From Haliclona indistincta (taxonomy: Eukaryota > Porifera > Demospongiae > Haplosclerida > Chalinidae): a stretch of 64,000 nt of DNA. Below are positions 7,701 to 50,854 of this stretch, one piece after another (position 1 is the first letter of the stretch; every line of letters begins with the position of its first letter). Location of the stretch: positions 1,614,134-1,678,133 of the forward strand of contig OZ024783.1 of NCBI GenBank assembly GCA_964017065.1. Reading direction: 5' to 3'. Under the pieces are notes generated by a model, which ran no database searches, was not told where the DNA came from, and was given only the letters and a program-made list of their open reading frames with translations. Position numbers and translations under genes: made by a program.

Positions 7701-10700
7701 AACACTCTTCATTATTTCATCTGCAGCAAGCTTACTCTTGAGCTCCCTCAGGCAGTAGATTAGAGATGTTCTCAAAATAGTAAGATGCAACAAATGCTTT
7801 AAGAAAAAGATATTGCACAAAAACCCACACTGTTATGATACCTGATTCAGTGATATCTTCAAATATTTCTCCAGGCAGTGTGATATAGTTGTTGTCAACT
7901 TGTATTCCAGTGACACGCCCACTACCAGGAAACACTTCTCTTATCCTCACTCCTATAAAGGATATTCTAGTCATAACACATAGATTCACTATAATAACTG
8001 TCTACATACGTATTAAATCATTTTTTGAGCCAACAGTTCTGCTCAGTCTGAGATTAAGAGCCACATTATCAAGTAGAAACAGAAATGAAGAATCAGAAAC
8101 ATTTGCCTAAAGATTAATCAAAATAATTATTAAAACAGAAGCAGGGGCGTAACTAGGGTCTGAAGAAAGAGGAGGCGCGCGTAAGCGCGCGCGATTTTTG
8201 AAACATATTAGTATTCATTGAAAATGACGTCATTTCCGCTAATCGATCACTCTCAATGTGGGCGTGTTATGTGTACAGATTGCAATAAATAGAACTCTGA
8301 CAGTTAGAGCGAGCTTTTCTGCTTCTGCTAAGACTCTACTGAGACCGTGCGCCTGTTTTGAATGGTTTGTTTACCTAGCACCTGCCTAAAATCGAGGAGG
8401 CAAGTGCCTCCCCTGCCTCTATGGTAGTTACGCCCCTGAGAAGTATCTGCTAATGTGTTCACAATTACGCATAAACTATTAACTTTAGCAAGCTGTATAG
8501 AAATTATATTATTTCCTTCCTCCAATGTATTTCTCAGACACAAGTTCAATGACCAGTAACAGACCTTTGCACTATCACTACTTAGCCAAATACCAATCAC
8601 ACCATACTTGCCTTATCTGGTATGTCTTCAACAATGTTTAGAACAAACTGGAATATTAGGGAGACACGGTAGTGTCTCCCTATGTAGGGTTGAACGAGAA
8701 AACAAGATGGCGGCTACATACAATGTATTAGCGTTCAAACGCTGATATTTCGCCTGGTGATGAATTTTATACGTCCAAAGATACTTAAATCTGCTATCTG
8801 GCGTTGCCCCATCTTACAGTAGCAAGGAGATCGCTCGAGATTGTTACTAAAGTGACGAACCTGAAAACGGTGAAAATCGAGTTTCGTCATCTTCGTTTTC
8901 TTCTTCTTTCTTTCTTCTTTCTTTCTTCCACTCGCCTAGCGCCTTTACGCGAGCAGTGCCGAGACCAAAACACCCACGAACAGTCGTGAAATTCTCCTGG
9001 CATGTGCCTTTTGGGCTTAGTTTTTAGCGAAACGGCGATATAAATTCCGCGATTTCTCGATCGTGATCCATTGTCAGCTAAGTGTTAGACGCCATTAGTG
9101 ATTGCGCAATACGCACGTGACCAAGCTGTGGTTAACGCACGTGACCAAGCACAAGCGCCACGCCGTATAGATCACGGAGAACACATATTTGTCTGGAGTC
9201 TTCGAAGAACGGTAAGCTAGCAAGCGCAGAATCACCATTCTGCCTTGCCAAATAATTATAACTGCCGTAAACAAGTGTGGGCGGGGCTCGTATGCACTGT
9301 ATTCATGCATGCGTAGGCGAGCTGATATCTACAGCATAAGAATTATTTAGCTACAAGTTTAAAATTGTTAATAATAAAGAAAAGCCATCAAAAACAGGAA
9401 AACCAAACCAATGGTGAAAGCAAAGATGGCACAGTGATATTGAACTGCACTTCACTGAAAAAGAAAAAAAGGACACAAACAAGAAAATTAAAAAGATTTC
9501 TATCGAAATCAAAAGGATGTAGGGTTGTGAAATCTACCACTGGTCAACAATGTAAACTAACAAGGAACAAGCATGGAATGGTAACACGATTGACTTGCTA
9601 ACAGACCATAGATCCCTACATCAGTGGCTGTACATAAGTTGTCACAAGCTGAATGCACGTCAGGTGTCAGTCAACAGCAACTAGCTGAACTAGCTATAGT
9701 CAACTACAGCAGCCACTGATGTAGGGATCTATGGTCTGTTAGCAAGTCAATCGTGTTACCATTCCATGCTTGTTCCTTGTTAGTTTACATTGTTGACCAG
9801 TGGTAGATTTCACAACCCTACATCCTTTTGATTTCGATAGAAATCTTTTTAATTTTCTACAATAGAGTATTATGATGTTTAAACAAGAAGGTGTGAGGCT
9901 ATACCTGTAGAAATGTATCTGTTATTCCTTGTGTTGTGTTGAGTTGTTGCTGCACAGCTCTCATAAGGAGATCCAATCGCTGAGTAATAGTGGTAGTGTT
10001 TGGTAGTAGCTGACTTAGAATCACGAGACTGTCTTCAGATAGAGATGATTCAAGCTACATGCATGCATGAACACAATGATACTCTGCTTTATTGTCTCCA
10101 TACCAGTTCCTCTACTAGTGGTAGTGATGGATGACAGTGAACTGGTCCCCACTTTCCATTGCAGTGACATACTCTGGTAGCTGTAATGTTGCATGCATGT
10201 AGAAAGGAAACAACTTAGCAAAACGTAAGCGTCACAGCAGTATAAAGCATATTGCATATACCATGTGTTGCCAATGAAAACAACATAACTAAAATTAATA
10301 GCAATACTAAATCTATAAACAGTCAATAACCGTTTGCATTGGAAAGTGAAGGGCAACTCTGAACATCACTTTTTCTGCTAATACTGCACTTTGGAGCTTC
10401 TTTCCAAGCACCACCAACAGCTGTGAACTTGGTGTCTAAATAAATTATTAATGTGTACATAGCAACAACTTGAAATCATAGAAAGCTATTTGCTAAATTA
10501 ATACCTGAAATCATGTTACAATTATTTATCATCTTAGAAACTTGAGGATTGATGGAAATATTAAGAGCAGCAGAATTGTCGCACAGTAGTGATCCATTAT
10601 GACTTATAAGTGCAGAGTAGAATGTGTTATTTTCACTACTTGAGGCACAAAGCTGAGTGATGTTGCTGCCACACCAGAAACTTCCATCTCTCCATTGATT

Positions 10701-11211
10701 GAATATAATGTCACCAATAACACCAGTAGCACTGTCAACAGTTAAACAATGGCAGTGATCAGCAGGAGATAGCTCAATCCTGAACTGATAGTGTGGGTTA
10801 GCTACTGTGTCGAGAATAGTTCCATTAAATATTGCAGACAATGAAAAAGTCAAGTTATGAGCTGAACTGCAGTTGTCTAAAGAATATAAAAGTATCAGTT
10901 AACATATTCGTCAGTATACTGACTCAGTGACCTGATACTGGAATCCATTGGGTATACTTTCGTACTGGCAGCACACTTCCCAGTCGTGTGCTCACTCTGA
11001 CAGTAGGATGGGAGCCATTACATTCTACTCCATCCACGAAGACAATATTTAGACTGAATCTATTGAATAAACAAAGTCCTGCCATGTAAGCAATGATATT
11101 CCATGCATATACTTGTACACACGACAATACTCACGAATCTTGAGCATCAGTAAACCAGGCTGAAAGCTCGAAACAGAATAGGAAGACCAGGGAGAGGTGT
11201 CTTTTCGCCAT
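4717..11211 (-). CDS. Adhesion G-protein-coupled receptor R2 (signal peptide, Cys-rich ectodomain, GAIN, 7TM)
   Basis: About 20 short exons. Exon 1 (11135-11211) gives MAKRHLSLVFLFCF..., a signal peptide. Exon 2 (10932-11059) and exon 3 (about 10505-10877) form an N-terminal domain I cannot classify, with the motifs 'GSFWCGSNITQLC' and 'CHCLTVDSATGVIG'. Further exons carry Cys pairs with 'CNGKWGPVHC', reminiscent of a sushi or HRM module. GAIN exons span about 9.91-10.06 kb (LSEDSLVILSQLLPNTTT) and then 8.64-7.5 kb. The GPS is at about 7330-7465. TM1 is near 6180-6300, TM2 5758-5862, TM3 5552-5712, TM4 5270-5345, TM5 about 5115-5225, TM6-7 about 4892-5060, and the tail exon is 4717-4839 (VRDAYINWW... 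ending KASVS). The GPS reads NHHAHF instead of the NHLTHF of its paralogues, so self-cleavage is doubtful. Introns hold three mobile insertions. The frames otherwise look open. R5 is its block-B paralogue. Confidence 0.82.
6313..7297. mobile_element. Dimeric MITE with AACCCTCGGC / GCCGAGGGTT ends, in an R2 intron
   Basis: Two tandem units of about 480 bp (about 6353-6832 and 6833-7310) each run from 'gtccaatgagctgcagagac' or 'gtccatcgagctgcagatac' to 'gtgcaacacgccgagg'. The outer ends are perfect 10-bp inverted repeats (6313-6322 and 7288-7297). It lies between the GPS and TM1 exons. The same dimer sits at the same place in R5 (45376-46350), so it predates the block duplication. R3 lacks it at the homologous intron (about 20850). 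A related element with CCTCGGTGG ends lies at 55889-56575. Confidence 0.75.
8137..8443. mobile_element. hAT-like MITE, 297 bp, 5-bp target duplication
   Basis: The element 8142-8438 starts CAGGGGCGTAACTAGG and ends TAGTTACGCCCCTG, giving inverted ends of about 14 bp. It is flanked by AGAAG at 8137-8141 and 8439-8443. R5 retains the empty site 'acagaagtatctgctaat' near 47182. Its CAG...CTG termini and GGCGTARC core fit hAT elements, and hAT subfamilies with 5-bp duplications are known. It is in an R2 intron. Confidence 0.87.
8656..9857. mobile_element. Composite element: 5' hairpin block plus terminal foldback (family C), copy 1
   Basis: The element starts TTAGGGAGACACGG with a perfect hairpin (AGGGAGACAC, loop GGTA, GTGTCTCCCT; 8658-8681). 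It ends with a palindrome of about 377 bp (9482-9858) whose arms begin 'agaaaattaaaaagatttc'. R5 at about 47402 reads 'ggaatatacaatag' with no insert, so the junctions are ggaata^tacaatag. I see no target duplication. A pyrimidine-rich run (about 8887-8930) lies within. Other copies are at 19019-20564, 63773 to the window end, and possibly the fragment at 1-228. There is no coding potential. It lies in an R2 intron. Confidence 0.8.
9482..9858. repeat. Long palindrome (foldback) forming the 3' part of composite element copy 1
   Basis: The left arm runs from 'agaaaattaaaaagatttc' through 'ggatgtagggttgtgaaatc' and 'gaccatagatccctacatc'. The right arm is its near-perfect reverse complement ending 'gaaatctttttaattttct'. 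Arms are about 150-170 bp and the centre is near 9660-9690 (tgaatgcacgtcaggtgtc). The right arm alone also appears at window positions 1-228. Confidence 0.85.
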
Positions 11212-11451
11212 TACCAGCGTTCTTGGTGGGGATGGACTAAGTTCAGAGAGTGCACTTGTCACGTGATCTCATCCACGTTGCTTGAAAATTTGGCGGGAGC
11301 GCGAAACCAACCGTAGATTTGATAGTTGTGTACGTTCTATAAGCGAATAACCACGATCGACCAAGCACCCAACTGGACTGTACTATGAGGGACTGGTAGA
11401 GGAAGTAGACACCCTTATAGAAATGCACAAGCTTAGTACTAGCTGTAACAG

Positions 11452-11529
11452 CAAGAGTATATAATCTTACCAAGAGTATCGAACGCCAATTGCCCCTGTA
11501 GAAACACTCTCGGGAAAGTAACGTGACAG
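11452..11529 (+). repeat. Left terminal inverted repeat of the P-like transposon
   Basis: These 78 bp start CAAGAGTATATAATCTTACC and end GTAACGTGACAG, mirrored exactly at 15865-15942. They contain two direct copies of CAAGAGTAT. The start codon of the plus-strand gene lies 98 bp inside, so the promoter must be in or next to the repeat. Confidence 0.93.
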
Positions 11530-11626
11530 AAACGTGATCCAGTGACGCAGTTATGTAGGCGTAGCCTGATAGTCCACGTCACACGCGCAGGCTCATGCAT
11601 GCACTGCAGCTGTGGGCGACGATATC

Positions 11627-12796
11627 ATGGATGCATCGGAAGATATCTTTTTAGAAGACGTAGGAGCGGAAGTGGATGTAAATCCTGACGAAGTGGCTAA
11701 TGTAGAGATCAAAAAGAAGAAGAGGAAAAGTATGCTATTGAAGAAAGGCGAGAGAGAAGAAATATTGAAGATGTTGTCGGGGCTACAGGACTGGCCTGGT
11801 GTTGCACAAGCCGTAGTAAGCACTGTCTCTAGTGAACATCATATGCGCATTTTTAAGGACAGAGGAAACTTTTGGGAGTTGTTGAAAAGTGATAAAATGT
11901 TTGTCGGTTTAGTGAAACAACTCGTTCTCTTGTTCGTCAGAATATATCAGTTGTGCCAGACAGGGAGGGACAAGTACAGTAGATTTCAGGTGGAGTGGCA
12001 CAAACAATGCAGTTCAATGTTACAAGACCAGTGCCTTCAAAAAGAGCTGCTAGAGATTCACCAGCAATGGCTCAGTTATTGTGCAAAATGTGAAGCCGAT
12101 AGAGCTGTCTCGAATCCAGTAATGGTAGCTGTGTGCTCAGCAGTGTTCGACTACCTAATGTCTAAAATCAACCAACACCAGAAGGAAAAAGCCAAAACAT
12201 CTGATTCTCTTTTGCTGCCAGAACAGGAAAAAGGAGTTTACTACAGGTTTGGTGGTGCAGCATTGTCATCAATGTTGCATCAAAGATATAATAAACTTAA
12301 GCCTGATATGCCTGAATCAGACAGGGAGATGTTAAAAAAGGAGATCTCTATTTTGAAGACCATTAACTGCACAGATAAAGATCATGTACCCGAATATCTG
12401 CAGTACAGAGACATGGGCTACATGTACTTTCCGGCTGTTCGATATATTCCATTTATTATGCACGTAGATCAATGTGTCCTTGAACATACAAATGAGAAGT
12501 CGCTACGGGAACACGGTTCATCACTTGTGGGAGTAGTGACTGCACATCTACGCCAAAATAAGAATCTTGAGAAGGAATTTATCACTTTACTTACAGAATT
12601 ATATTCACAAAACAAAGAAGTAGTACAGAGAATCTATTTAGAATTTACTCGTAAACTATGCAACACCAGGATACAAGAGTTCCTTGATGTCTATCGCCAG
12701 CTAGCTGCTAAAAAAGAAGATGGAAAACATACTTTGTCAGGACAGAATCTGAGAGACAAATTGTTAACATACCATACAAGCTCAAAATCACAGTGA
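11627..12796 (+). CDS. Transposon accessory protein of unknown function (389 aa)
   Basis: This is an intronless frame inside the transposon. I chose the ATG at 11627 (MDASEDIFLEDVG); the frame extends 15 bp upstream to a GTG but has no earlier ATG. Residues 1-30 are acidic and are followed by a lysine-rich stretch (KKKKRK, nuclear-signal-like). The rest is predicted mainly alpha-helical, with Cys/His scattered (YCAKCEAD, VDQCVLEH) but no clear zinc finger. A conserved-looking core reads 'VYYRFGGAALSSMLHQRY'. I recognise no catalytic motif. Its placement between the TIRs, opposite the transposase, suggests an accessory role such as DNA binding, nuclear import or regulation, as second ORFs have in Harbinger or CACTA elements. 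That is inference. It could also be a captured host gene. Confidence 0.85.
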   Translation: MDASEDIFLEDVGAEVDVNPDEVANVEIKKKKRKSMLLKKGEREEILKMLSGLQDWPGVAQAVVSTVSSEHHMRIFKDRGNFWELLKSDKMFVGLVKQLVLLFVRIYQLCQTGRDKYSRFQVEWHKQCSSMLQDQCLQKELLEIHQQWLSYCAKCEADRAVSNPVMVAVCSAVFDYLMSKINQHQKEKAKTSDSLLLPEQEKGVYYRFGGAALSSMLHQRYNKLKPDMPESDREMLKKEISILKTINCTDKDHVPEYLQYRDMGYMYFPAVRYIPFIMHVDQCVLEHTNEKSLREHGSSLVGVVTAHLRQNKNLEKEFITLLTELYSQNKEVVQRIYLEFTRKLCNTRIQEFLDVYRQLAAKKEDGKHTLSGQNLRDKLLTYHTSSKSQ

Positions 12797-12799
12797 ACT

Positions 12800-15754
12800 C
12801 TATTCAGATAATTCTTGGACATGATTACTTGTCTTGCTTCTGTTGTACTTCTTTTTTTCTAATGGTGCTATGGGAATAGACAACTCTTGATCTCTGTAGA
12901 ATAGGCCACTGTGGTGCACTGCCTGTTTAGCTAGATACTTAGATCTGCATGTAGCATAGTTAGCAGCATCAAGCTTGCTGCCCGACATGTGCTTGTATTG
13001 CCCGAACAACGACTCCACTGCACTTCCTGATACTCGCAAAGGTGACAAAAAATATCCCGGGTAGCACTCCAGGAAGTATTTTGTTAACTCAGTGAACCCG
13101 TACACATCAATTCTCAGATTGTCCCATGCTGAAATTAATGAAAAGTTAATTACAGATGCTCCTAATACATCATTTCTTACTTTGCCATGAAAGAAATTTC
13201 TTTTGGCAGTTTTCAGTTGCACAAAATGAAGAATCTGTGTGCAGACAATCACCATTGTAGCATTACAATTGTTCAACATCAAACCTTCAGCATAGATTCC
13301 ATCCAACCATGTAGAGAAAAACTTGAACCCCTCTGTAATGTTTGTAACAACACGACTGTCAGGAGATGTCACCTTATCGTGACTTAAAAGCCCTCGCTCA
13401 AATAGTTTGTTGCATGCCTCAAGAAATTTTAATGTCAGTTTAGCACTGGCACTATCTTCAGGTGGAGGAGTTTGATTGCAGTACATATATAACTCAGACA
13501 ATACCTCCTCTTGCTGTTAATAAATGAATACAATAATAAAATTGTACAGATATACGCATGCATATAACTATATACCTGCATGATCTTTGCAGGTGCCACG
13601 TTCAATTTTGTCCATGAATCTCGAACTATGTGGCTTTCTCTAAGCTTCGGCACCATCCTGGCATGTCCAGTTTTCTTTTTATCACACTCTCTTATCCACA
13701 TCTTGTAGATGTCCTTCCATCCAAAGACAATGCCATGTCGCTGGAATAATTTGGTTCCGTTATCACGGGAAGAATGTAGGGCATTGATCATGTTTTTCAG
13801 CTGGAAGTATAATAATCACGCATGTATGTACATTAATAATAATCGTAATCTAGCTCACTTGATGGCTAGGGCATATTACCCAGAAAATCTTCTTGCCGGG
13901 TTCAAATGGGTTGGGAAAATAAGGTTCCACTCTGTGACGGTCAGCAGATCCTTCCACACAGTCGATACCATATGCTCCAGATGTTTCACATGTGGACTTG
14001 AGTGCAGAAATGTTAGCACTTGCCCCATCACAGACTAACGCAGAGGTATGAAATGAGTAGAGATAGAAGAGTCTCAGAGTCTGAAACACACAAGCTAGAA
14101 TGAACTTGGACTCCAGTGTGCCACTGCTGGTAAAATATGGACCCACAACATCAAATGAGCTAGTGAGATCCCTCCATAGAAATTGAAGAATGTAGCTTGT
14201 CTGTTCACTAGCAGTTTTTTCATCTACTAGCTTGTAAGCATCATGCAGTGATGACATCTCTTCAGGGCTCATGGCCAAACCGATTACTCTTTGACTCCTC
14301 GAATTCCACATCAGCCTTGATATCACTTTCACCTCGTCAAATATCAGTGCGCCACATCCTTTTGGTTCCATCTTGTTATCCACAGCACACTTTTGCTTGA
14401 ATGATTCAAACCTCTCTGCTTCTTTTGCCATGCGTTCATGACTACTTCCTGCATACAATAGAATGCACGTATAATACATGCTATCAAAATAATAGAATTA
14501 TAGTTTACCGCAATCTTCAAGAAAGGCACCTGTGTACGCCTGTAAAGTAGAACGTGATGGCAACTGGAGTATGCCAAAGTTCTTGAGGGCACCATAAGCT
14601 GATGGACTACGGCAATAGACAGCAAGAGCTAGTCTAATGGTTACTGCACTCCATCTATTTGTCCGTTTGCCCACACCTGTAAATAATTATAACAAATCAC
14701 ATGTCAGTATAATACATGCACTGCATGCCACAGGGAAATTTACAATTATCCTGTTGATCTTGAACAAAATCATCTCTCATCTTCATCTTGTCCATCTCCC
14801 AAATCTCACGAACAGCACCTGCTCCACTACTATAATAATTATATATCATTGTAATCATAAGTATAGATTGTTGTGATCAATGACACACCTATCAGCCTCC
14901 TTCAAAATACTTTCAACCTCATCATCTCCATTTTGGTCAATGGCCTCCATCAGCTTTATAAGCTCATCGTGCTGCTCATCATCCAGCGTCAACTCAGTAT
15001 GTGAGTACTTTTGCAGTTGAGTGCGATCTTTGGCACGTTCACGCTGAGTGTTCTCCTTTCTCTTCTGTTTACTAGTGGGAGACATGTACTTCAATGGACA
15101 GTGTGATGATGGTTGTTGGCGCTTGACTTTATCCGAGGAAGAGACCGCAGACTTCAGTCGCTGATTTAGGTCACTGACTAGACGCTTGCAAGAACTACAC
15201 TGCACACAATCTAACTCTCTTTCCACGATACTTGAATTCTTGGGCAGCGTGTGATAAAGCAGGCAACCACTAGAATCGATTCTTTCAAAGGGATGCTCCA
15301 TACGACGAACTTGTTTGAGATCATATCGAATCTTTGAAAAATACGTCGACTGATATACAGTAGGATCTATTCCTGGACAGAACTTGAATTCACCTTTTGA
15401 ATTTGCCATCATTTCACACAGACCAAGAAATTCATCAACTGACTGCAGTTTTCCACTTGTTTTGGTCCTTAGTAGTATTTGAAAGAAAAAACTTCTGTCT
15501 TCATGGACTACTACTCTCGTGCGTGAGATGGAGCCTGCTGGAGGATGCCAGTGACAAACCTTGCAGCCAACAATTACGTGAGCACCCTTTGTAACTGTAC
15601 GACCGACATCAAACTGCAGCCTGGAATCGTACTTAGCCTGCCCTGCAACTGCTAGACTACTGACCGAAATAAGACTAGCGTCTGCGCTCGATGACTGAGG
15701 TGGCATTCGTTTCGCCGACAATAGATCGTCTTGAGCAGCACTTCTTTTCGCCAT
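12800..15754 (-). CDS. P-element-superfamily transposase (882 aa, six exons)
   Basis: Exons are 15754-14889, 14829-14744, 14676-14509, 14448-13859, 13800-13576 and 13513-12800. All have GT/AG borders and phases add up to 882 codons plus TAG. Residues about 1-285 hold C-x2-C pairs (GCKVC, CVQCSSC) and a basic segment after 'CPLKYMSPTSKQKRK'; no THAP zinc finger is seen. Residues about 325-365 (RWSAVTIRLALAVYCRSPSAY) match the helix-turn-helix region typical of P/THAP9 transposases. Likely RNase-H acidic residues are D411 (LIFDEVKV), D514 (LVCDGASAN) and E812 (SAVESLFGQYK, equivalent to the family 'ENFFSxIR' motif). The usual D-x-P-H-L site reads I-C-P-S-H-Q, lacking Asp. It is expected to cut the element ends and reinsert them in the nucleus. 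The stop codon is 3 bp from that of the converging gene. Confidence 0.85.
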
Positions 15755-15864
15755 GGTTTCGCAGCCGCTATAGCTTGCGCTGCATGCATAGGCCTGCTCT
15801 TCGTTACGTCACTGCCAATTGGTACTACACGCCTGCGTCACAATGCGTAATGAATCGCACGTGC

Positions 15865-15942
15865 CTGTCACGTTACTTTCCCGAGAGTGTTTCTACAGGG
15901 GCAATTGGCGTTCGATACTCTTGGTAAGATTATATACTCTTG
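15865..15942 (-). repeat. Right terminal inverted repeat of the P-like transposon
   Basis: Exact reverse complement of 11452-11529, ending ...ACTCTTG at 15942 directly before the second GTAACAG. The transposase ATG is 111 bp inside the repeat. Confidence 0.93.
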
Positions 15943-15949
15943 GTAACAG

Positions 15950-17450
15950 GTATACCGCACATGGCGATCAAGAAGACCAGCTCAATCTACTACCATCATG
16001 TTACCTGATGAGAACACCAGCGAGGAATTTCAGAACAAGGAGGATCAGAAATCGACAATGTTAGTAATATTTAGCTAATAATAATGAATCAAACACTAAA
16101 TTAATAATAATTATTATAGACATGTTCATGATTCCAGACTCTTTGGTGGCTTTCTTTGATTTATATATAGGTATCTCAGACTGCAAGTGATTCACTAGCA
16201 CCAAACCACAACTCTGTAGTGCGGTTGTATGGAAGAAGAAAGAAGGGATGAGAGAGGTGTCGCTTGATGTGATTCCATTCTCTGTAGAAGAGGAAAGAAT
16301 AATAGACTGTCACCAAACTACTATAAAAAATCACATACCTCCACACAAGAGAGACTACGACTACAGGGTACACGTAAAATTGGGTGTCAAGCAAAGATAC
16401 ACATCAAGAAATGCACACAGTATCCTGAATTTGCTGAATCTCTAGTGCAAAAAAAGCAAGAGAGCATTCCCCGTGAAATCTAGCATGCAGCAGAAGAATG
16501 AAGCACCAAGGTGCAAATGCCTCGGAGGAATTTCAGGTAGCTCATTGCAGTTTAATCGGTGACAGCACTAGAATTCTGTAGCTGAGTATGACACAGTCTT
16601 GACAACAAAAGTTGTGACACCTTCAGCCCTAGAACTACTGATAAGCATACTAGACATGCTCTGACTATACAATGCTTCTGCTGCTATTAGAATTACAAGT
16701 GCTACATGTACATAATGAGAAATACAGCTGCAGCAAGACCACTCCACTCATTATTGCTGCTAGACTTAGCTGCTTATCGTTTGCAGAATATGTACGTGTA
16801 ATGATGCTTGGACAATGCAGATACGTAGTGGTTGCACCTAAGCAATCAGAAGCCTAGCAGTGCTGACCACATGGAATTCAGCTGGGCGTGCCTGCAAGAA
16901 GAGTGAAACCCAAGTATGTGAAGTTGCGACAGAAAGCACAGCACTACTAACTCTAGTCTAGACTGGAGGGCACATCATTGAAACTAGGGAAAAAGAGGCA
17001 AGACAGCAAGTTTAGGAACAGGGTTGGTAAAAAGGCAGACAGGTTAAGAAAGGTAGACATAAAGCATTAATATTTATAATACCATTGCATATTGTTTTAC
17101 AAACAGGAGGCACAGAAGACACAGGACCAGAAAAACTTACAACAATCCACTGCATACGTAAGCACAAAACATTGTAGGCTATGCCATAGACAACAAATGA
17201 TAAAAATGTATCAGTTAGAAGAGGAAGATGTAACCAGTACGTGCCCTGGATGTCAAAGATCAGACTGCGGGACTTCACTTTTAAACTTTGTCTCGACAAG
17301 CCCAAGTTTGGTGGCGAGGGCGTCAAAAAGCAGTGCTGTGCCAATAGAAAATGCAGACTGGTGGCGTCTCTCAGTCTCAACATTCTAAACATTTTCGTAT
17401 AATAAAAACACTTACATGAATAGACTGCTATTGACAACAATGAGGACATA
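15950..17450 (+). pseudogene. Fragment of a KMT2/MLL-like gene with broken CXXC zinc finger, copy A
   Basis: The recognisable part is at about 17232-17402. One frame gives 'CPGCQRSDCGT' and the next frame gives 'CLDKPKFGGEGVKKQCC' followed by 'ANRKC'. Together these match the CXXC domain of MLL-type histone methyltransferases (C-P-G-C-Q, D-C-G, C-L-D-K-P-K-F-G-G, K-K-Q-C-C, R-K-C). Between the halves about 5 extra bases shift the frame and a zinc-binding Cys is lost (TSLLN where TC.. is expected). Upstream, about 16955-17070 encodes a basic stretch (LGKKRQDSKFRNRVGKKADR), consistent with the region before this domain. No SET, PHD or FYR parts are visible. A copy almost identical over 1.5 kb lies at 49000-50480. 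The antisense 145-residue frame is a shadow. Confidence 0.72.
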
Positions 17451-17736
17451 TTAAAAGTAAAACTTGTTTGAATGAACGCTGTTTCAAAAGTCCTACAGCT
17501 GCTATTGACAACCTCACTGTTATCAACAAGAAGCTATCAAAGTATATTTATGATTAACTAGACTCTCCTCCTTCATTTCTTGCAGAGAAAACATTCTTTT
17601 TAGTAAAAGCCAAGAGATGCTACCATAATGTTTTTGAAAGCAATAATACACTGCATGAACATAAGCAAAGTAACATTGTTAGGATTACAATAAGGCATCG
17701 CCTGAGAAAAGTTAATGCAATGATCAAAATCTATGA

Positions 17737-17742
17737 TCTTTA
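17737..17742 (-). terminator. Probable poly(A) signal of receptor R3
   Basis: On the minus strand the sequence reads 'gtgaataaagatcat', about 80 bp after the R3 stop codon. The paralogous positions in R2, R5 and R9 carry AATGAA or AACGAA, so those genes use another signal or a weaker variant. Confidence 0.5.
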
Positions 17743-17821
17743 TTCACACATTGCTCTCTTTAGTAGAGTCAGCTAGCTGCAAGAATAGTAAAAGTGAGAC
17801 ATTATAATAATGTGTGCTCTG

Positions 17822-20800
17822 TTAGCTCACTGAGGCATTTTTGGTGGGAAGAGGTTCACTGGAAACAAGAATCTTGATAGATGACTTGTTTGATTGTGAA
17901 TGTGACCATTTTTTTCTCCACCAGTTGTTGTAAGCGTCTCTTACCTATTTCACAAACAAAAAATATAAACAGCTTCAGTAGTTAATGGAACTAACTGGTT
18001 TAGAGAGAGGAACCAACAAGATGAATATAATGATGCCTTGACAACAAACGAAACCATCCATGATGAATGCGATAACATAAAGATCAGTTAGATGACTAAA
18101 AATTAAATGACCAATCCACGATATGCCCGTTACAACTATCAGTGATATGGTAACTTTTAACCAGTGCCTGCACGAGAATACAAATTATCACACAGCAATA
18201 CACGGCGTTACTTTGTCGTATTTCTTTTCTCTTTTTTCTTCAGATGACGACACATGATAGTAAGAGCCATAACCAGGAACCCAAAATTGACCTATATTTT
18301 GTGCAATAAAAGATGATGTAGAATACACTCACGAGAATGATAAGAAAAGCGGGAGCGATGAGTGCCCAAATATAGTTAGTATCATATCTCAACCAACACC
18401 TGTGATACACTGTATATTACACTTTCAAGCTTTATGGATCACTTACCGAAATAGTCGACCACTTATAGCATCCCGACGTCCATAATGGCTTCCAATAATG
18501 TTTCCAGTGTTGACTAAGAACCCAAGAGGTACCACTAGAATCATGTGTAACAATGGTACACCTATACGAAGCATAAAGTAATTGTAGCTAATGTAATACT
18601 TCACCTACCATAGCTTGCTATGGTGAAGAGAGCGATGTAGTGTTTGCAATTGTGATGTGTGATAAATACTTTAACTAGAATGACATACAAGACCACACCC
18701 TCCATTAGCATCCACATGCACATCACTAATATCAGATAGTGTAGCAACACAGCAATGGCTAAACAGACAGCCTGTATGGTGCAGTAGAGTGGATGGATAG
18801 TAGTAGGACTCTCTTTACCTCATTCTCAGTTCTGTCTATCCCCACAATATACGTAAGCTGAGCAGTGAACATGCTGCCACACAACATACAGTGAATGTAG
18901 TTACGTATGTTCCACAGAGACCTGTAGTCAGTGAATTAATACAGATGCCGTCAAATTAAATTGCAAGTGCAAGCACACAAAGCAAATGTCGGTAGCAAAA
19001 GTACGCGAGTAGCATATATTAGGGAGACACGGTAGTGTCTCCCTATGTAGGGTTGAACGAGAAAACAAGATGGCGGCTACATACAATGTATTAGCGTTCA
19101 AACGCTGATATTTCGCCTGGTGATGAATTTTATACGTCCAAAGACACTTAAACCTGCTATCTGGCGTTGCCCCATCTTACAGTAGCAAGGAGATTGCTCG
19201 AGATTGTTACTAAAGTGACCAACCTGGAAACGGTGAAAATCGAGTTTCGTCATCTTCGTTTTCTTCTTTCTTCTTTCTTTCTTTCTTCCACTCGCCTAGC
19301 ACCTTTACGTGAGCAGTGCCGAGACCAAAACACCCACGAACAGTCGTGAAATTCTCCTGGCATGTGCCTTTTGAACATAGTTTTTAGCGAAACGGCGATA
19401 TAAATTCCGCGATTTCTCGATCGTGATCCATTGTCAGCTAAGTGTTAGACGCCATTAGTGATTGCGCAATACGCACGTGACCAAGCTGTGGTTAACGCAC
19501 GTGACCAAGCACAAGCGCCACGCCGTATAGATCACGGAGAACACATATTTGTCTGGAGTCTTCGAAGAACGGTAAGCTAGCAAGCGCAGAATCACCATTC
19601 TGCCTTGCCAGATAATTATAACATCCGTAACAAGTGTGGGCGGGGCTCGTATGCACTGTATTCATGCATGCGTAGGCGAGCTGATATCTACAGCATAACA
19701 ATTATTTAGCTACATGTTTAAAATTGTTATTATTACATAGTACGTCATCTTTCACCAATCAGATTGCTCTATTCGAGGGCATTAATGTAGGTTATTGACC
19801 GCGCGTAGCGTCTTCTATAGCAACAGACCGTTGCGTCTTTGCGAGTTTGAAAAATTCGCGATGTTATTGGTCTCACAGAGATGAACTATGTAATAAATCA
19901 TTTATTGCCCTACACAACTCGGGCATTAACCGACATTAATGACCTCGGGAAGTCGGTTGCCCTCGTACAGTCTCGGGCTGCGCCCTCGACCGTAACTCGG
20001 GCGACCGACTTTCCCGCGGTCATTAATGTCGGTTAATGCCCTCGCGTGAGGGCAATAACTAATACATAATAAAGAAAAGCCATCAACAACAGGAAAACCA
20101 AACCAATGGTGGAAACAAAGATGGCACAGTAATTGCATGATATTGAACTGTACTTCACTGAAAAAGAAAAAAGGACACAAACAAGAAAATTAAAAAGATT
20201 TCTATCGAAATCAAAAGGATGTAGGGTTGTGAAATCTACCACTGGTCAACAATGTGAACTAACAAGGAACAATCATGGAATGGTAACACGATTGACTTGC
20301 TAACAGACCATAGATCCCTACATCAGTGGCTGTACATAAGCTGTCACAAGCTGAATGCACGTCAGGTGTCAGTCAACAGCAACAAGCTAAGCTGAACTAG
20401 CTATAGTCAACTACAGCAGCCACTGATGTAGGGATCTATGGTCTGTTAGCAAGTCAATCGTGTTACCATTCCATGATTGTTCCTTGTTAGTTCACATTGT
20501 TGACCAGTGGTAGATTTCACAACCCTACATCCTTTTGATTTCGATAGAAATCTTTTTAATTTTCTTGTAAATCTAAGGATTGTACGTAATTTTATTGAGA
20601 GTGGAACTATTATGATCAGTCAAGAATGCACATTAAAGCTTGCTACATTATATCAAGTACATTAGCTTTGTATTCTTGATAATGTGTATCGGTTAGTTCA
20701 TAATGTAGGGTTTACTGACCTCTGTAATACGAATGTAAGAATAGTAGCCAACAGAAACACCAGCGAAATGGGCACAAGAACACGCAAAATGACTAATTCA

Positions 20801-31896: not shown

Positions 31897-34800
31897 TCAA
31901 AATGTTCTGTAGCTGTTGTTTTCATTTTCGTTGTTACCATTGTCAAGAAGACGATAAGGAAGACTGTCACTAACGTCAATGCACTCACGACTAGCTGAAG
32001 TCTCGTTCTTCATCTTTAGTGCGGACAATTTCTGGTATATTTTAATAGCTATGAACACCATCATGTATCCAATAGAGATAGAGATCAGAATTAGCTGCAC
32101 AATGATCAGAAGCGTTCCGTTTGATCGATAGAAAGCAAATACGGCTGAATAAATGCATGTAATGGAACAATGAACATAAACAAACTAATAAACAAACCGT
32201 AGTAGTATTGAGGACCTTGAACAATGATGCTGGCTATTGTGATAAACATTAAGCGATAAAGAAAGTAGAGTCCAGCGAAGTATCGATGTCTATCTTTGAA
32301 GCAAGCCTGGAAGGTGTCAAGAAATGGCATCAGCTTCAGTCGTAGTTTGTCGTAGTACCATTTTGGTGGTGTCCTTGTGAAGCAGTCCTTGCTGAACAGC
32401 TTAGTGAGTATGGGTTACAGAATGAGGATAGTTGGTGGAGGAGTCAAGATGAAGATAATACAAAGAAAGGCTGGCACAGCATGCCACAGATGGGTTCCCT
32501 TCAGATAGTCAAGCTCACCATCAAACATAGGAGCAGTTGTGTACCATTCATGATATTTATAGATATATGAAGGAGTTAGTATGCATGATGTGATGGCAGC
32601 ACATTGAAAGTAGCACAGCACTAGGAATGCCGACAGTCCATCTACTATAGACCCTCTAATGTTCCTCCTGCCACATCGTCGGCACAGCTTCACACAGCTG
32701 TAACATGAGTGTATTTTCATGAACAAGATAGTTCCCAGAACCAGAAAAAATGCATATGCAAGAGTGGCATATTGAATCATAAGTAGATTCATGATCGTAT
32801 CAGAAAAATACAAAATCCTCCACTCCAAATTTCAAAAGAGAAAATTCCTATTACCAATTGAAAGAAATCCACTGCATACCGTGTGAAGCGATCTTCAATA
32901 TGAATTGTTTTGAAAGCTGTTATATTTATTCACGATAATATCTGAATATAGAAGACGAAGCTGTAGACAGCTCCTGAAGTGATCCTAATATTGAAGAGCA
33001 ATATAATGAGGAAGATGATAGTCACCGGGAGCAGCTCTGAGACAATATATAGATAGGTATACCATAACTACAGCTGGTGTTGTTTCCACAAGTGTAGCTT
33101 GCTGAATGATAATACACAGACATGTTGTCAACACATCTCCCGCACAATCGGCCATGCCTACTGTCTCCACAAAGTTGTTTCTCTAGAGCCTGTTTATCAG
33201 CCATTGGAGGTAGGGTGCATGTAGGCTGACCATGACAATTATTTGGGTTGCATAATTACACAGAGTCCAGTAAGTAGATTACCTGGTGTTGTATCGTTCA
33301 TGTATCCTGCCCAATAATTGCTGGCAATTGCTGCTGATTCATTTTCACATTGTATCGATTTGTAATTTTTGGAACAAGTACATTTCAGTGATTCGTTGTG
33401 AAACTCAAATCCCGGGCCGCAAAAAGACAAATTGAATCTTGCTGTGAGAGTATATGTTGAGCTTTCCAGCAGTAGTTCACCTTCATCTCCTGGGAAGCCT
33501 ACAACCATGATTGAGTTATTGTGATAATAGGCAACTTTGGCATTTTCTCTTGAACTCTGTACTCTAGCTGTGAAGGGGAACAGTTGACTTACATCTTCTC
33601 CAAACTCATCGTATTGCACTATTTTTAAAGAAGATTCTATGCCAGGCAAAACTACACCTTGGAATTGAATTGTATAATTGTTGGGTGAAGTAGCAACAGT
33701 CTTTCCAGGGTTAGTGAATGTAAAATTTCCCAAGCACTCTGTTTCTAAAAGGTGAGGTATACTGTAAGAGTCATTACTTGCTTGAATGCAAGAATTATTA
33801 CAAGTCTCTAGGGTTGTTGTATAAATATCACTGTATCCAATACTGGCTGAGTTGTTGTGAAAATAGAAGAAAACATTGTTTGGCTGATGATCCAGAATAT
33901 ATAAAAAACATGATATGTCATTTATGTTAGCTTCCAGAACACTAGTCAAAGCACTAATGGCTCCACTAAACATGGTGGCTGTGTTATTCAAAAAATAGAA
34001 GGAACTGTAGTCATCACCAGCCCGGTAATCACTGTGAATATAGAGCGCTGAATGTCTAGACAGTACTATTGCTCCACCTTTGTAGCCAGAGTTCCTACTG
34101 AAGTAAACACGACTGCCAGTATTAAACATTGCAATTGTTTTTAAATCATCGTTTGAATCAAGATACAATGCTGTGCCATTGTTTCCTGTGAAATCAGTTG
34201 TACCCTCAAATATGACTTCCACTTCTGAAATGAAAAATGCGCCATTTTTATTGCCAGCAACATTAATAGACTTGAATATCACTACATTGCTCCTGAATAT
34301 ACAATCAAGGAAATAAACCCTATTGATGTTCTTAGGTCCATATTTCAAGAATATGCCACTAGTAACACTAACTGCTGCACCACATCGTGCAGAATTACTC
34401 TCGAAACGACATTTTATACATTTCAGAGTGTTGTATCTGTGTTTGAAATCTTCTAAAGAAGAAGAGTAAGTTGACAAACCTCCACCATTTGTAGCAGTAT
34501 TGCTGACAAAAAAAGAACTTAGAACAATGCAGGTATTGTTACTCGGAAAAAAATCATTGTGGGCTGAGTATCTAATTTGAAGACCTCCTCCATCAGCAGA
34601 CGCAGTGTTAGCAATGAAAGAATTATTCAAGATTTTAATCATGCTATTTGATGTATTTCCACTTACATAAATAAATGCACCACCGCCGTAAACTGCATAA
34701 TTGCCTTCCAGTGTGTTATTTTCCAGTTTAATACTGCAATGCTTGTAAAAATAATTATTATTTAGAATAAGGATTCGAATTCCACCACCTCTTTCACAGT

Positions 34801-35566
34801 ACTTAGAGTCCATGGGATTTTGTTTTGGCACTCTGTTTGAGACATTGCCGTGTCCATTTTTTATGAACTTGCTATTCACAATAGAATAATCAGCGTTCAT
34901 GCTCAGATTATTTTCACCAAGAAAGACCACTTGTAAAGCACCTTTACCGAAAGAAAGTGATTGAGAAACAGTGTTGTTGATGAAATAAGAGTCAACTACT
35001 TGTACTGTTAATCCTGTGTTGATAAACGTAAGACCTTGACTAATACTCATGGACACCATAATGCCCGATACATTGACTCGATTGCAGTTAATAATTTGGA
35101 TTGCTGTGCCATTGCCAGTGAGAGATTCTTTTGTGCTAAAAATGGTAGCTACACAGTTACTGATAGTGAAACTCTTAAGGGTGATACGTGTAGAGTGATC
35201 AAAGGCTATTCCGGTATCAAAGGTGCTGGAACTATTGCAGATGATTTCTGTCATTGAGTTGTCTTCTTTCCCGGTTAGAGTAATGTTCCCTACTCCACTG
35301 AAATTGGCTACTCCTTGAAGAGTGTAGTTAGTGTCATTAATCAAAATGACAATGTTGTTGAGCTTGAAACTAGTCACATGTTTAGAGACATTGACCAGAG
35401 ATCGACAGGAGACCAGTGAGCTGTGTTCCTCAAGACAAGATAGAGTGTCACTTCCCTTCTCTGAGATAAAGATCTCTCTGACAGAGACACACTGACAGCT
35501 CCAGTAGAAAAGACACAGTAGTAACAAAATCCGCATTCTGAACTTTCTGTGTCCGCAACTGACCAA
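31897..35566 (-). pseudogene. Decayed beta-helix polytopic membrane protein gene (paralogue of 39511-43251)
   Basis: This is an intronless copy of the intact gene downstream. The first 775 codons are open (likely ATG at 35536, MRILLLLCLFYWSCQC). Against the paralogue it then shows a 5-bp deletion near 33250 (LCVTELCN becomes LCVIMQPK-stop) and a disrupted stretch near 32830-33050. A Glu-to-stop change (GAA to TAA) lies at about 32414 (TILIL-stop-PILTKLF), and a deletion of about 80 bp at about 32143 removes part of the penultimate membrane region. These lesions make a full product impossible. A secreted ectodomain fragment could still be made from the first frame. Confidence 0.87.
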
Positions 35567-36159
35567 TGCGATTGTATTTATTATCTCATAATAGATTTAT
35601 AGAATTATCTTGTTTTTCAAACATTGACTAATAATAATGATAGGCACAATACATAATACATTTGGAACATTTCCTGCCAGCAGCTGTATTCAGCTAAGTA
35701 TTTTTTTAAATCATGAGCTTGATCAAAGGAATGTATAATTAAAGGAACTTGCATACTGACAACAATGAAGACAAAAGTAAAATTTTGAAAGAAAACTCTC
35801 AAAATGTCCTATACAGCTGCTCTTGACAGCAACTTCACTGTTATCAACAGGAAGCAAATACATATACACTTACTGTACAATTAACTTGACTCTCCACATT
35901 CATCTTTAGTTAGTCTGTTGAGAAAATATTAATTTTTAGTGTTAACTAAAAAGCCAAGACATGCTACACATGTACCATAATGTTTATGAAAGCAACAATA
36001 CATTGAATAATATCATTGTTAGGATTATAATAAGACAACGCCTGTGAAAAGTTAATACAATGAGAGTCAAAATCTGATCTTCCTTCACACTTTGGTCTCT
36101 TTAGTAGAGTCAACTAGCTGCAAGAATAACAGTGAGACATTATAATAATGTGTGTTCTG
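35567..36159. other. Spacer between the two truncated-receptor/beta-helix units
   Basis: No gene. 35567-35780 is the 5' flank of the beta-helix gene, matching 43252-43470 ('catttcctgccagcagctgt'). 35800-36120 is the receptor 3'-flank repeat ('aatgtcctatacagctgctc', 'tttagtagagtcaactagc'), as after R2, R3, R5 and R9. Confidence 0.7.
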
Positions 36160-39510: not shown

Positions 39511-42500
39511 TCAAAATGTTCTGTAGCTGTTGTTTTCATTTTCGTTGTTATCATTGTTGAGAAGACGGTATGGGAGACTGTCACTAACGTCAATGCACTC
39601 ATGACTAGCTGAAGTCTCGTTCTTCATCTTTAGTGCGGACAATTTCTGGTATATTTTAATAGCTATGTACACCATCATGCATCCAATAGAGATAGTGATG
39701 AGAATTAGCTGCACAATGATCAGACGCGTTCCATTTGACCGATTGAAAGCAAAGTTGTAAAGTGTGATCATTAGCAGGGATATGATGATGATGAAGAGTG
39801 ACATCTCTAATAATTCATGCCATTTCTTCTTGTACGGCTGAATAAATGCATGTAATGGAACAATGAACATAAACAAGCTAATGACCAAACCGTAGTAATA
39901 TTGAGGACCTTGAACAATGATGCTGGCTATTGTGATAAACAATAGGCGATAGAGAAAGTAGAGTCCAGCGAAGTATCGATGTCTATCTTTGAAGCAAGCC
40001 TGGAAGGAGTCTAGAAATGGCATCAGCTTCATTCGTAGTTTGTCGTAGTACCATTTTGGTGGTGTCCTTGTGAAGCAGTCCATGCTGAACAGCTTAGTGA
40101 GTATGGGTTCCAGAATGAGGATAGTTGGTGGAGGAATCAAGATGAAGATAATACAAAGAAAGGCAGGCATAGCATACCACAGATGGTCTCCCTTGAGATA
40201 GTCAAGCTCACCATCAAACATAGGAGCAGTCGTGTACCATTCATGATATTTATAGATATATGAAGGAGTTAGTATGCATGACGTGATGGCAGCACATTGG
40301 AAGTAGCACAGCACTAGGAAAGCTGACAGTCCATCTACTATAGACCCTCTAATGTTCCTCCTGCCACATCGTCTGCACAGCTTCACACAGCTATAACATG
40401 AGTGTATTCTCATAAACAAGATAGTCCCAAGAACCAGAAAGAATGCATATGCAAGAGTGGCATATTGAATCATAAGTAGATTCATGATCGTGTTAGTTTG
40501 AAACATACAAAATCCTCCACTCCGAATTTCAAAAGAGAAAACTCCTATTACTATTTGAAAGAAATCCACTGCATACTGTGTGAAGCGATCTTCAATATGT
40601 ATTGTTTTAAAAGCAGTTATATTTATTCGTGATAATATCTGAATATATAGGACAAAGCTGTAGACAGCTCCTGATGTGATCCTAATATTGAAGAGCAAGA
40701 TAATGAGGAAGATGATAGTCACTGGGAGCAGCTCTGAGACGATGTAGATAGGTATACCATAACTACAGCTGGTGTTGTTGCCACAAGTGTAGCTTGCTGA
40801 ATGATAGTACACAGATGTGTTGTCATCACATCTCCCGCACAATCGGCCATGCCTACTGTCTCCACAAATTTGTTTCTCTAGCGCCTGTTCATCAGCCATT
40901 GGAGGTAGGCTACAGGTAGGCTGACCATAACAATTATCCGGGTTGCACAATTCTGTTACACAGAGTCCAGTAAGTAGATGATCTGGTGTTGTATCGTTTA
41001 TGTATCCTGCCCAATAATTGCTGGCTATTGCTGCTGATTTATTTTCACACTGTATCGATTTGTAATTTTTGGAACAAGTACATTTCAGTGATTCATTGTG
41101 AAACTCAAATCCCGGGCCACAAAAAGATAAATTGAATCTTGCTGTGAGAGTATATGTAGAACTTTCCAGCAGTAGCTCTCCCTCATCTCCTGGGTAGCCT
41201 ACAACCATGATTGAGTTATTGTGATAATACGCAACTTTGGCATTTTCTCTTGAACTCTGTACTCTTGCTATGAAGGGGAACAGTTGACTGACATCATCTC
41301 CAAACTCATCGTATTGCACTAATTTCAAAGAATTTTCTATACCAGGAAAAACTACACCTTCGAATTGAATTGTATAATTTTTGGGTGAAGTAGCCACATT
41401 TTTCCTAGAGCCTGTGAAATTAAAGTTTCCCAAGCACTTTGTTTCAAAAAAGTGAGAAGCATTAGAATCTTTGATTGTACGATTGCAAGAGTTATAACAA
41501 GGTTCTATAGATGTTGTATAAACATCACTGTATCCAATACTGGCTGAGTTGTTGTGAAAATAGAATGATACGTTTTTTGGCCAATGTTCCTGTAAAGTTA
41601 AAAAGCACGTTTTTTCATATATGTTAGGTGTCTCAAAGATGATTCTATTAGTCAAAGCACAAATGGCTCCACTGAACATGGTGGCTGTGTTACTCAAAAA
41701 ATAAAAGGAACTGTAGTCATCACAGTGAATATAGAGAGCTGAATTTCCAGACAAGACTATTGCACCTCCTTTGTAGCCAGTGTTCCTTCTAAAGTAAACA
41801 CGACTACCAGCATTAAACGTTGCAACTGTTTTCAAATCATCGTTTGAATCAAGATACAATGCTGTGCCATCATTTCCTGTGAAATCAGTTGTGTCTGTAA
41901 ACGTGACTCCCACTTTGGAAATGAAGAATGCGCCATTACTATCTACATTTGATTTGGTTATCACCATATTGTTCTTGAATATACACTCATTGAAAAAAAC
42001 TCGATTTATGCTCTTTGTTCCTTTTTTCGAGAATAGCCCACAAGTAACACTAACTGCTGCACCACAGGGTGCAGAATTTCCCTCAAAAAGACAGTTTTTA
42101 CAAGACAATTTGTTGTATTGGTCGGTATGATTTATGTGGTGTCTTATAGAAGAAGAGTAAGTAAACAATCCTCCGCCGCTTGAAGCAGTGTTGTTGATAA
42201 ATGAAGAATTGATGATAGAGCAGGTATTGTTAACTGGAACAGTGTGCCCATAAGCAACATAACTAATTTCAAGACCTCCTCCACTAACCAACACAGTGTT
42301 GGAAAGGAACGAATTATTCAAGATTTTAATTTTGCTATTCGATGTACTTCTAGTCACATGTACGAACGCACCACCACCAAAAACTGCATGATTGCCTTCC
42401 AGTGTGTTGTTTTTCAACGTTATGCTGCAATCTCTGAAAAAATGATCAAGAAGAACGATTCGAATTGCACCTCCTCTTTCACAGAGCAAGGTTTCAGCGA

Positions 42501-43251: not shown

Positions 43252-43808
43252 TGCAATTGTATTTATTATCTCACTATAGATTTATAGAATAATCTTATTT
43301 TCAAACATTGACTATTATTGTACTATTATGATAGGCACAATACATAGTACATTCGGAACATTTCCTGCCAGCAGCTGTATTCAGCCAAGTATTTAAATCA
43401 TTGTGAACTTGATCAAAAGAATGTATAATAAAAGCACTTACATGAATGGACTGCTATTGACAACGATGAACACAAACGTAAAACTTGCTTGAAAGAAAGA
43501 TGTTGTAAACGCTCAAATTATCCTACAGCTGCTCAAGCTTGACAGCAACTTCACTGTTATTAAATTACACTTACAACTAACTGAACTCTCCACCTTCATC
43601 TTTAGTGGAGAAAATATTTTTGAAAGCAACTCTACACTGAACATAAACATAGTAACATTATTTTGTGGGATTAGAATAATAAGACATCGCCTGTGAAAAG
43701 ATAATGCAATGATCAAGCTACTGTCTTCGTTCACACTATGGTCTCTTTAGTAGAGTCACCTAGCTGCAAGAATAATAACAGTGAGACATTAAAATAATGT
43801 GCGCTCTG
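43252..43808. other. Spacer between the beta-helix gene and R5
   Basis: No gene. It has the 5' flank of the beta-helix gene, then the receptor 3'-flank repeat ('cctacagctgctcaagctt', 'tttagtagagtcacctagc'). The left edge of block B lies here or just upstream. Confidence 0.6.
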
Positions 43809-48762: not shown

Positions 48763-50854
48763 TGCCAGCGTTCTTGGTGGGGATGGACTAAGTCCAGGGA
48801 GTGCACTTGTCACGTGATCTCACCCACGTTGCTTGAAAATTTGGCGGGAGCGCGAAACCAACTGTAGATTTGATAGTTGTGTACGTTCAATAAGCGAATA
48901 AGCACGATCGACCAAGCACCCAACTGGACTGTACTATGAGGGACTGGTAGAGGAAGTAGACACCCTTATAGAAATGCACAAGCTTAGTACTAGCTGTAAC
49001 AGGTATACCGCACACGGCGATCAAGAAGACCAGCTCAATCTACTACCATCATGTTACCTGATGAGAACACCAGCGAGGAATTTCAGAGCAAGGAGGAGAA
49101 GACGACAATGTTAGTAATTAAACACTAAATTAATAATATTGTAGACATGTTCATGATTCCAGTCTCTTTGGTGGCTTTCTTTGATTAGGTATCTCAGACT
49201 GTAAGTGATTCACTAGCACCAAACCACAACTCTGTAGTGCGGTTGTATGGAAGAAGAAAGAAGGGGTGAGAGATCGAGGTGTCACTTGATGTGATTCCAT
49301 TGTCTGTAGAAGAGGAAAGAATAATGGACTGTCACCAAACAACTATAAAAAATCACATACCTCCACACAAGAGAGACTACGACTACAGGGTACACGTAAA
49401 ATTGGGTGTCAGGCAAAGATACACATCAAGAAATACACACTGTACCCTGAATTTGCTGTATCTCTAGTGCAAAAAAAGAGAGCATTGAAATCTAGCATGC
49501 AGCAGAAGAATGAAGCACCAAGGTGCAAATGCTTCGGAGGAATTTCAGGTAGCTCATTGCAGTTTAATCGATGACAGCACTAGAATTCTGTAGCTGAGTA
49601 TGACACAGTCTTGACAACAAAAGTTGTGACACAAAAAAAACACCTTGAGCCCTAGAACTACTGATAAGCATACTAGACATGCTCTGACTATACAAAGCTT
49701 CTGCTGCTATTAGAATTACAAGTGCTACATGTACATAATGAGAAATACAGCTGCAGCAAGACCACTGTACTCATTATTGCTGCTAGACTTAGCTGCTTAT
49801 CGTTTGCAGAATATGTACGTGTAATGATGCTTGGACAATGCAGATACATAGTGGTTGCACCTAAGCAATCAGAAGCCTAGCAGTGCTGACCACATGGAAT
49901 TCAGCTGGGCGTGCCTGCAAGAAGAGTGAAACGCAAGTACGTATGTGAAGTTGCGACAGAAAGCACAGCACTACTAACTCTAGTCTAGACTAGAGGGCAC
50001 ATCATTGAAACTAGGGAAAAAGAGGCAAGACAGCAAGTTTAGGAACAGGGTTGGTAAAAAGGCAGACAGGTTAAGAAAGGTAGACATAAAGCATTAATAT
50101 TTATAATACCATTGCATATTGTTTTACAGACAGGAGGCACAGAAGACACAGGACCAGAAAAACTTACAACAATCCACTGCATACGTAAGCACAAAACATT
50201 GTAGGCTATGCCATAGACAACAAATGATAAAAATGTATCAGTTAGAAGAGGAAGATGTAACCAGTACGTTCCCTGGATGTCAAAGATCAGACTGCGGGAC
50301 TTCACTTTTAAACTTTGTCTCGACAAGCCCAAGTTTGGTGGCGAGGGCGTCAAAAAGCAGTGCTGTGCCAATAGAAAATGCAGACTGGTGGCGTCTCTCA
50401 GTCTCAACATTCTAAACATTTTCGTATAATAAAAACACTTACATGAATAGACTGCTATTGACAACAATGAGGACATATTAAAAGTAAAACTTGTTTGAAT
50501 GAACGCTGTTTCAAAAGTCCTACAGCTGCTATTGACAACCTCACTGTTATCAACAAGAAGCTATCAAAGTATATTTATGACTAACTAGACTCTCCTCCTT
50601 CATTTCTTGCGGAGAAAATATTCTTTTTAGTAAAAGCCAAGAGATGCTACCATAATGTTTTTGAAAGCAATAATACACTGAACATAAGCAAAGTAACATT
50701 GTTAGGATTACAATAAGGCATCGCCTGAGAAAAGTTAATGCAATGATCAAAATCTATGATCTTCGTTCATTCACACATTGCTCTCTTTAGTAGAGTCAGC
50801 TAGCTGCAAGAATAGTAAAAGTGAGACATTATAATGATGTGCACGTGTGTTCTG
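48763..50854. other. Intergenic block B: empty transposon site and CXXC fragment
   Basis: This is collinear with 11212-17821 of block A minus the 4.5-kb transposon. 48996-49002 (GTAACAG) is the empty insertion site. 49000-50480 is the CXXC gene fragment (own entry). 50510-50840 is the R9 3' flank. No other gene is seen. Confidence 0.8.
49000..50480 (+). pseudogene. Fragment of a KMT2/MLL-like gene with broken CXXC zinc finger, copy B
   Basis: Almost identical to the copy at 15950-17450. At 50259-50430 the two frame-shifted halves of the CXXC domain recur with the same extra bases. In addition the first Cys codon is now TTC (FPGCQRSDCG in place of CPGCQRSDCG). The shared lesion shows the fragment was already broken before the block duplication. 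Confidence 0.72.

Follow-up and report, generated by a model that had tools for sequence, protein, structure and literature searches.

Introduction

In the accounts cited here, the P element of Drosophila melanogaster has a single gene whose product carries an N-terminal THAP domain and a C-terminal domain (CTD) in the same protein, together with 31-bp terminal inverted repeats (TIRs) and 8-bp target-site duplications (PMC7776569). A disordered linker connects the CTD, which packs against another subunit; when the third intron is retained, a shorter P protein results, and this represses transposition (PMC7776569). In THAP9, a helix-turn-helix is followed by an RNase H domain with a GTP-binding insertion, and THAP and CTD lie in one protein (PMC10983969). 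Galileo, a P-superfamily element of Drosophila, possesses a transposase with a THAP domain and unusually long TIRs (PMC3688188), and makes mostly 7-bp duplications, reported with the consensus GTANTAC (PMC4168063) or as GTAGTAC (PMC2775673). Two-gene layouts have been described elsewhere: PIF/Harbinger and other PHIS elements carry a second open reading frame (ORF) with a Myb/SANT or YqaJ domain or, in Pangu, without a known motif (PMC4482050), and KolobokP has, downstream of its transposase, a second gene on the complementary strand that encodes a His-Me finger nuclease (PMC9587614). Here we describe a P-superfamily transposon of the sponge Haliclona indistincta, located in a 64,000-nucleotide stretch of contig OZ024783.1 (positions 1,614,134 to 1,678,133; hereafter the window). 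This is probably a cut-and-paste element whose transposase is split between two convergent genes, one for a catalytic subunit and one, orfB, for a CTD subunit acting in trans.

The sponge element differs from the Drosophila P element in its two convergent genes, the lack of a THAP match, its 78-bp TIRs and its 7-bp duplications. It shares the order helix-turn-helix to RNase H with GTP-binding insertion with vertebrate THAP9, in which, unlike here, the CTD is part of the same protein and a THAP domain is present. Like Galileo it makes 7-bp duplications, its target motif nTAnTAn being a weaker form that is less strict at positions 1 and 7 than GTANTAC; it again differs in having no THAP match, and a second gene goes unmentioned in the Galileo accounts cited above. 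The two-gene layout is common to PIF/Harbinger and other PHIS elements, whereas the transposase superfamily and the second ORF differ. A second gene on the opposite strand is shared with KolobokP, but the His-Me finger nuclease and TTAA duplications belong to Kolobok. Among the matches listed in the open-licence literature, with Repbase outside the search, there was no report of a P element that carries another gene besides its transposase.

Structure of the element

The transposon spans 4491 bp (11452-15942) between two GTAACAG copies (Table 1). The position, perfect TIRs, flanking duplication and empty site that an earlier note had read from this DNA were all borne out by the sequence. The flanks of the filled site align with those of the empty-site copy at 96.8% identity on the left (9858-11451 versus 47405-49002) and 94.2% on the right (15943-18537 versus 48996-51577). 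Many intervals of the window between 4597 and 64000 are internal duplications, mostly direct and of 74-97% identity (for example, 32140-35754 versus 39833-43443 at 86%); the empty site is therefore one among several copies of the block. Since the TIRs are identical, an empty site exists and both frames are open, the description of the element as young and intact is consistent with the data; that it is active today is something we infer.

Table 1. Features of the transposon and its empty site, in window coordinates.
Feature	Position	Strand	Basis
Target-site duplication, left, GTAACAG	11445..11451	none	sequence
Left TIR, 78 bp, perfect	11452..11529	+	sequence
orfB, 389 aa, single exon, from ATG	11627..12796	+	open reading frame
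orfB segment aligned to 6p5a chain B residues 618-734 (CTD)	12212..12715	+	structure comparison of model
Transposase exon 8, catalytic E778, no CTD	12800..13128	-	gene model, alignment
Transposase exon 7	13181..13234	-	gene model and copy comparison
Transposase exon 6	13285..13513	-	gene model and copy comparison
Transposase exon 5	13576..13800	-	gene model and copy comparison
Transposase exon 4, holds PF21787 (N-terminal domain of the RNase H) with catalytic D411, D514	13859..14448	-	profile search, alignment
Transposase exon 3	14509..14676	-	gene model and copy comparison
Transposase exon 2	14744..14829	-	gene model and copy comparison
Transposase exon 1, N-terminal region with several Cys, THAP not matched	14889..15754	-	gene model, profile search
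Right TIR, 78 bp, perfect	15865..15942	-	sequence
Target-site duplication, right, GTAACAG	15943..15949	none	sequence
Empty site, single GTAACAG, collinear flanks in duplicated block	48996..49002	none	sequence comparison

Within the left TIR, the tip motif CAAGAGTAT is present again 19 bp further in. By eye, a AAGAGTAT-like tip motif recurs some 17-35 bp inside the TIRs of two-gene elements in most families (in the window, 11452-11490), often with AAC after it. The repeated motif could represent a pair of transposase-binding sites.

The catalytic gene

Of the two long open genes claimed earlier, orfB is indeed one open frame; the minus-strand gene is predicted to run from 15754 to 12800 in eight exons that encode 848 amino acids (aa), the seven introns between them being 50-67 nt long and of the GT-AG type. 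A single long ORF and a five-exon, 854-aa model were both rejected, because alignment with homologues exposed intron remnants and a missed exon; the eight-exon model, using other GT-AG sites, was adopted for this reason. The boundary dinucleotides of all seven introns are conserved in a 95%-identical copy (C5:6672147-6676652). The profile search (THAP included), the PDB search, the public homologue search and the first homologue alignment used the 854-aa model, in which the PF21787 exon is identical.

Profile and fold searches agree in placing this protein in the P superfamily; assignment to another superfamily, which the earlier note had named as fatal to its reading, did not occur. The element displays a TNP-like RNase H fold (PF21787, contained within one exon) with a GTP-binding-type insertion, a catalytic Asp-Asp-Glu triad (D411, D514 and E778 by alignment with homologues), CA...TG ends, TIRs and duplications in the 7-8 bp range. 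PDB sequence searches with the transposase and with its profile returned no P-element chain. Its relatives in the public protein set include coral, priapulid and Sycon sequences.

The protein has no CTD of its own: 70 aa separate E778 from its end, and this distance is 53-78 aa in 26 of the 28 homologues that have the catalytic Glu, so that the partner transposases stop where a CTD should start. No THAP domain was matched in the window transposase at E values up to 10, nor in 39 homologues (23 families listed) at E 0.1. Where a THAP domain would lie, at residues ~64-190, there are cysteines at positions 64, 67, 113, 126, 164, 183, 186 and 189, partly conserved among relatives, and by eye the region looks like an exon of the second lineage described below (L104). 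It is possibly another zinc-binding domain for end recognition.

The second gene

orfB lies tail-to-tail with the transposase gene, the two stop codons being 3 bp apart; an in-frame GTG at 11612 offers an alternative start that would give 394 aa. On each strand, the first AATAAA/ATTAAA downstream of the 12790-12810 junction lies inside the opposite gene, so the two transcripts are expected to overlap, and the overlap could give rise to double-stranded RNA.

The predicted model of residues 196-363 has the fold of the P-transposase CTD, and the best VIA-align match of the orfB model is this very domain, over 117 of 118 residues. In the structure comparison 6p5a alone stood out as a family, which does not thereby exclude others, and Foldseek by itself did not single out the CTD. 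Globin and terpene-synthase matches of the N-terminal half were dismissed as chance helical likeness, as were weak Pfam matches of orfB relatives (the best, a TRS130-like four-helix bundle, at 5.1e-05 in 2 of 34). The window orfB matched no Pfam family at E 1, and thus no Myb/SANT domain; PF12596, the P-element C-terminal model, had no match in the orfB type. A PDB sequence search with the orfB profile gave no P-element chain.

Is orfB instead an accessory protein that shares no origin with the transposase (DNA-binding, nuclear-import or regulatory, as with the Myb/SANT protein of PIF/Harbinger) and was captured once and kept? Such accessory ORFs are well known in two-gene DNA transposons, and the second ORF of Pangu is described as having no known motif (PMC4482050). 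The protein begins with an acidic and then a basic stretch, has no Pfam match of its own and an N-terminal half that the CTD fold leaves unexplained, and the Foldseek result is also in keeping with this explanation. Yet the best structural match is the CTD of precisely the transposase family that orfB accompanies, and it is this domain that the partner transposases lack. We consider an unrelated accessory protein unlikely.

In the host genome (144 Mb, 46 contigs), orfB has 35 matches, and 51 proteins of the public set match it in a search that requires shared short words. Most of these are unnamed, the named ones coming from Dysidea avara only; the nearest named relatives of orfB and transposase alike are from this sponge. 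IMG/VR scans with the profiles of orfB and of the second gene type described below gave no confirmed match.

Pairing across the genome and a second lineage

Of 30 merged orfB loci, the window included, 22 lie tail-to-tail with transposase sequence, which in some is only a short remnant. At E 10, PF12596 matches the genome in just two places, each under the cut-off and each convergent with matches to PF21788, the GTP-binding domain model. One belongs to an element of a second lineage (C5:11831044-11836275), which is 5232 bp long with a perfect TIR of ~45 bp and a 7-bp duplication, ATTGCAT. Its transposase exons match PF21787, PF21788 and PF21789, all above the cut-off, and its separate convergent gene matches PF12596 at E 0.0022 (19 bits, below the cut-off), which further argues against an accessory protein of unrelated origin. 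This type of partner gene has 103 matches in the genome; eight others that were scanned gave no PF12596 match, and neither the second-type profile nor one such protein retrieved a P-element chain in PDB sequence searches. Profile comparison of the two second-gene types was not significant with small alignments and borderline with a larger one (203 collinear columns, a score reached by 2 of 150 column shuffles).

When both second-gene types are counted, a convergent partner lies no more than 5 kb away at 46 of the 63 PF21787 loci, against 0.285 under random placement. None has a same-strand partner, 17 have no partner, and one of the 46 also has a divergent one. Hence the two-gene layout is upheld and runs deeper than the earlier note saw.

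Both genes evolve under purifying constraint. Between the window element and the 95%-identical copy, dN/dS is 0.097 for the transposase (81.7 synonymous, 32.3 nonsynonymous changes) and 0.28 for orfB (20.5 and 23.5, respectively). Furthermore, the two proteins diverge together: their distances correlate with r 0.965 over 14 of 15 two-gene loci, one short orfB having been dropped (0 of 2000 permutations), and with r 0.953 when one locus per clade is retained (n=8; 0 of 5000). That the convergent ORF is a trapped host gene or a chance frame has in its favor only the absence of a Pfam name; it is refuted by the genomic and public matches of orfB, its tail-to-tail pairing and its dN/dS, and we give it next to no credence. 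In a transposase tree of 63 rows made by a quick method, two-gene loci fall in three places and on both sides of the midpoint, so the pairing is probably old in this lineage. Coral sequences, on long branches, stand beside one two-gene group.

Related copies and target sites

A search with the 30-bp tip pattern, allowing up to three mismatches, gave 60 matches in the genome and none with the reversed control; the recurrence is therefore not due to chance. The matches form 25 pairs and 10 single ends. Two of the 10 single-end loci (L087 and L088) were fetched, and neither showed a recognisable second end. Twenty-four of the pairs were tabulated together with the C5:6672147-6676652 copy, whose tip differs. 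Besides the window element and the C5 copy, these 25 comprise 20 short copies (550-598 bp) and three longer ones (1.6-1.9 kb), and an exact 7-bp duplication flanks 24 of them, the exception (L081) matching over 4 bp. The remaining pair, C6:466880/473349, has unlike flanks; its ends are 6.5 kb apart with an orfB match in two frames, which suggests a copy that has been rearranged or has taken up an insertion. Compared with one of their number (L004), the short copies show 94-98% identity, and they have only the ends in common with the autonomous element. In the C5 copy orfB is open, and the transposase frame is broken by inserted base(s) in exon 1.

Ends were sought at 14 two-gene loci and found for eleven elements, which represent different families or copies; none were found at C9:4784190 and C3:7051011, and the C6 copy had no duplication. 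All eleven show a 7-bp duplication with a differing eighth base. Their tips read CAAGAGT, CAAGGGC or CAGGAGC, and with the second-lineage element a CA start and a 7-bp duplication occur in 12 of 12, in a search that accepted only exact repeats of 7 or 8 bp and so could detect no other length. Boundaries and duplication length, whose variation among copies the earlier note had held to count against it, are thus maintained. The 33 pooled target sites, read on both strands, yield the palindrome nTAnTAn, with T at position 2 in 59 of 66; some sites, such as CCCACAC, lie outside the motif, and two short copies are inserted in GTAGTAC. The tabulated pairs include no TTAA duplication, their duplications being of 7 bp. 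The earlier suggestion that 7-bp duplications mark a distinct lineage does not hold, nor are they a new trait, since Galileo's duplications are described as mostly of 7 bp, with the consensus GTANTAC (PMC4168063) or as GTAGTAC (PMC2775673).

A model for the proposed split transposase

We suggest that the spliced minus-strand gene would yield a catalytic subunit that ends just past the RNase H fold and comprises a helix-turn-helix, that fold with its Asp-Asp-Glu, and an insertion whose Drosophila counterpart binds GTP, as it may do here. The helical protein encoded by orfB, with the CTD fold in its second half, would be the other subunit. Both proteins would assemble on the terminal repeats, the orfB subunit being needed to occupy the place of the linked CTD in Drosophila, between the RNase H and GTP-binding domains and touching transposon and target DNA. 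This complex would excise the element and integrate it, with a stagger of 7 bp, at sites resembling nTAnTAn, and the ~580-bp non-autonomous copies would be mobilised through the same ends. The catalytic subunit alone may bind the ends without transposing, like the 66-kDa repressor of Drosophila, and orfB could therefore be the limiting activator. Because the Drosophila linker is disordered, its CTD packs on another subunit and the shorter protein represses, separation of the CTD is structurally plausible and its regulatory meaning obvious.

orfB might also act the other way, repressing or antagonising transposition instead of being a needed subunit, which is compatible with a CTD-like fold. 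A shorter P protein is described as a repressor in Drosophila (PMC7776569), and an unlinked CTD could act as a competitor for the complex. In that case, though, the CTD-less transposase would have to act alone across the family, and the constraint on orfB and its divergence together with the transposase are less expected for a dispensable brake, making this role quite improbable. Extending the split-transposase proposal, P transposases may ancestrally have had two subunits, a catalytic protein and a separate CTD, the one-gene insect and vertebrate forms having arisen by fusion and third-intron retention in Drosophila re-creating separate CTD dosing by splicing; this we advance tentatively, as a possibility short of an even chance.

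Other features of the window

Two minus-strand ORFs, 39511-43251 (1246 aa) and 33239-35566 (775 aa), are alike by eye; the longer, which alone was scanned, has a signal-like start, a membrane-rich end and no Pfam match. A plus-strand ORF at 1503-2177 matches the secretin-family 7-transmembrane receptors (PF00002).

Significance

The P element is a founding model of eukaryotic transposition, and splicing at the end of its gene determines whether transposase or repressor is made. A natural family with the CTD as a separate protein would permit a direct test of the role of this domain, and of repression by the catalytic part alone. It would also provide a route to asking how the split enzyme came to be fused, or the fused one split, and a split transposase could yield a two-component, dose-controlled tool for gene transfer.
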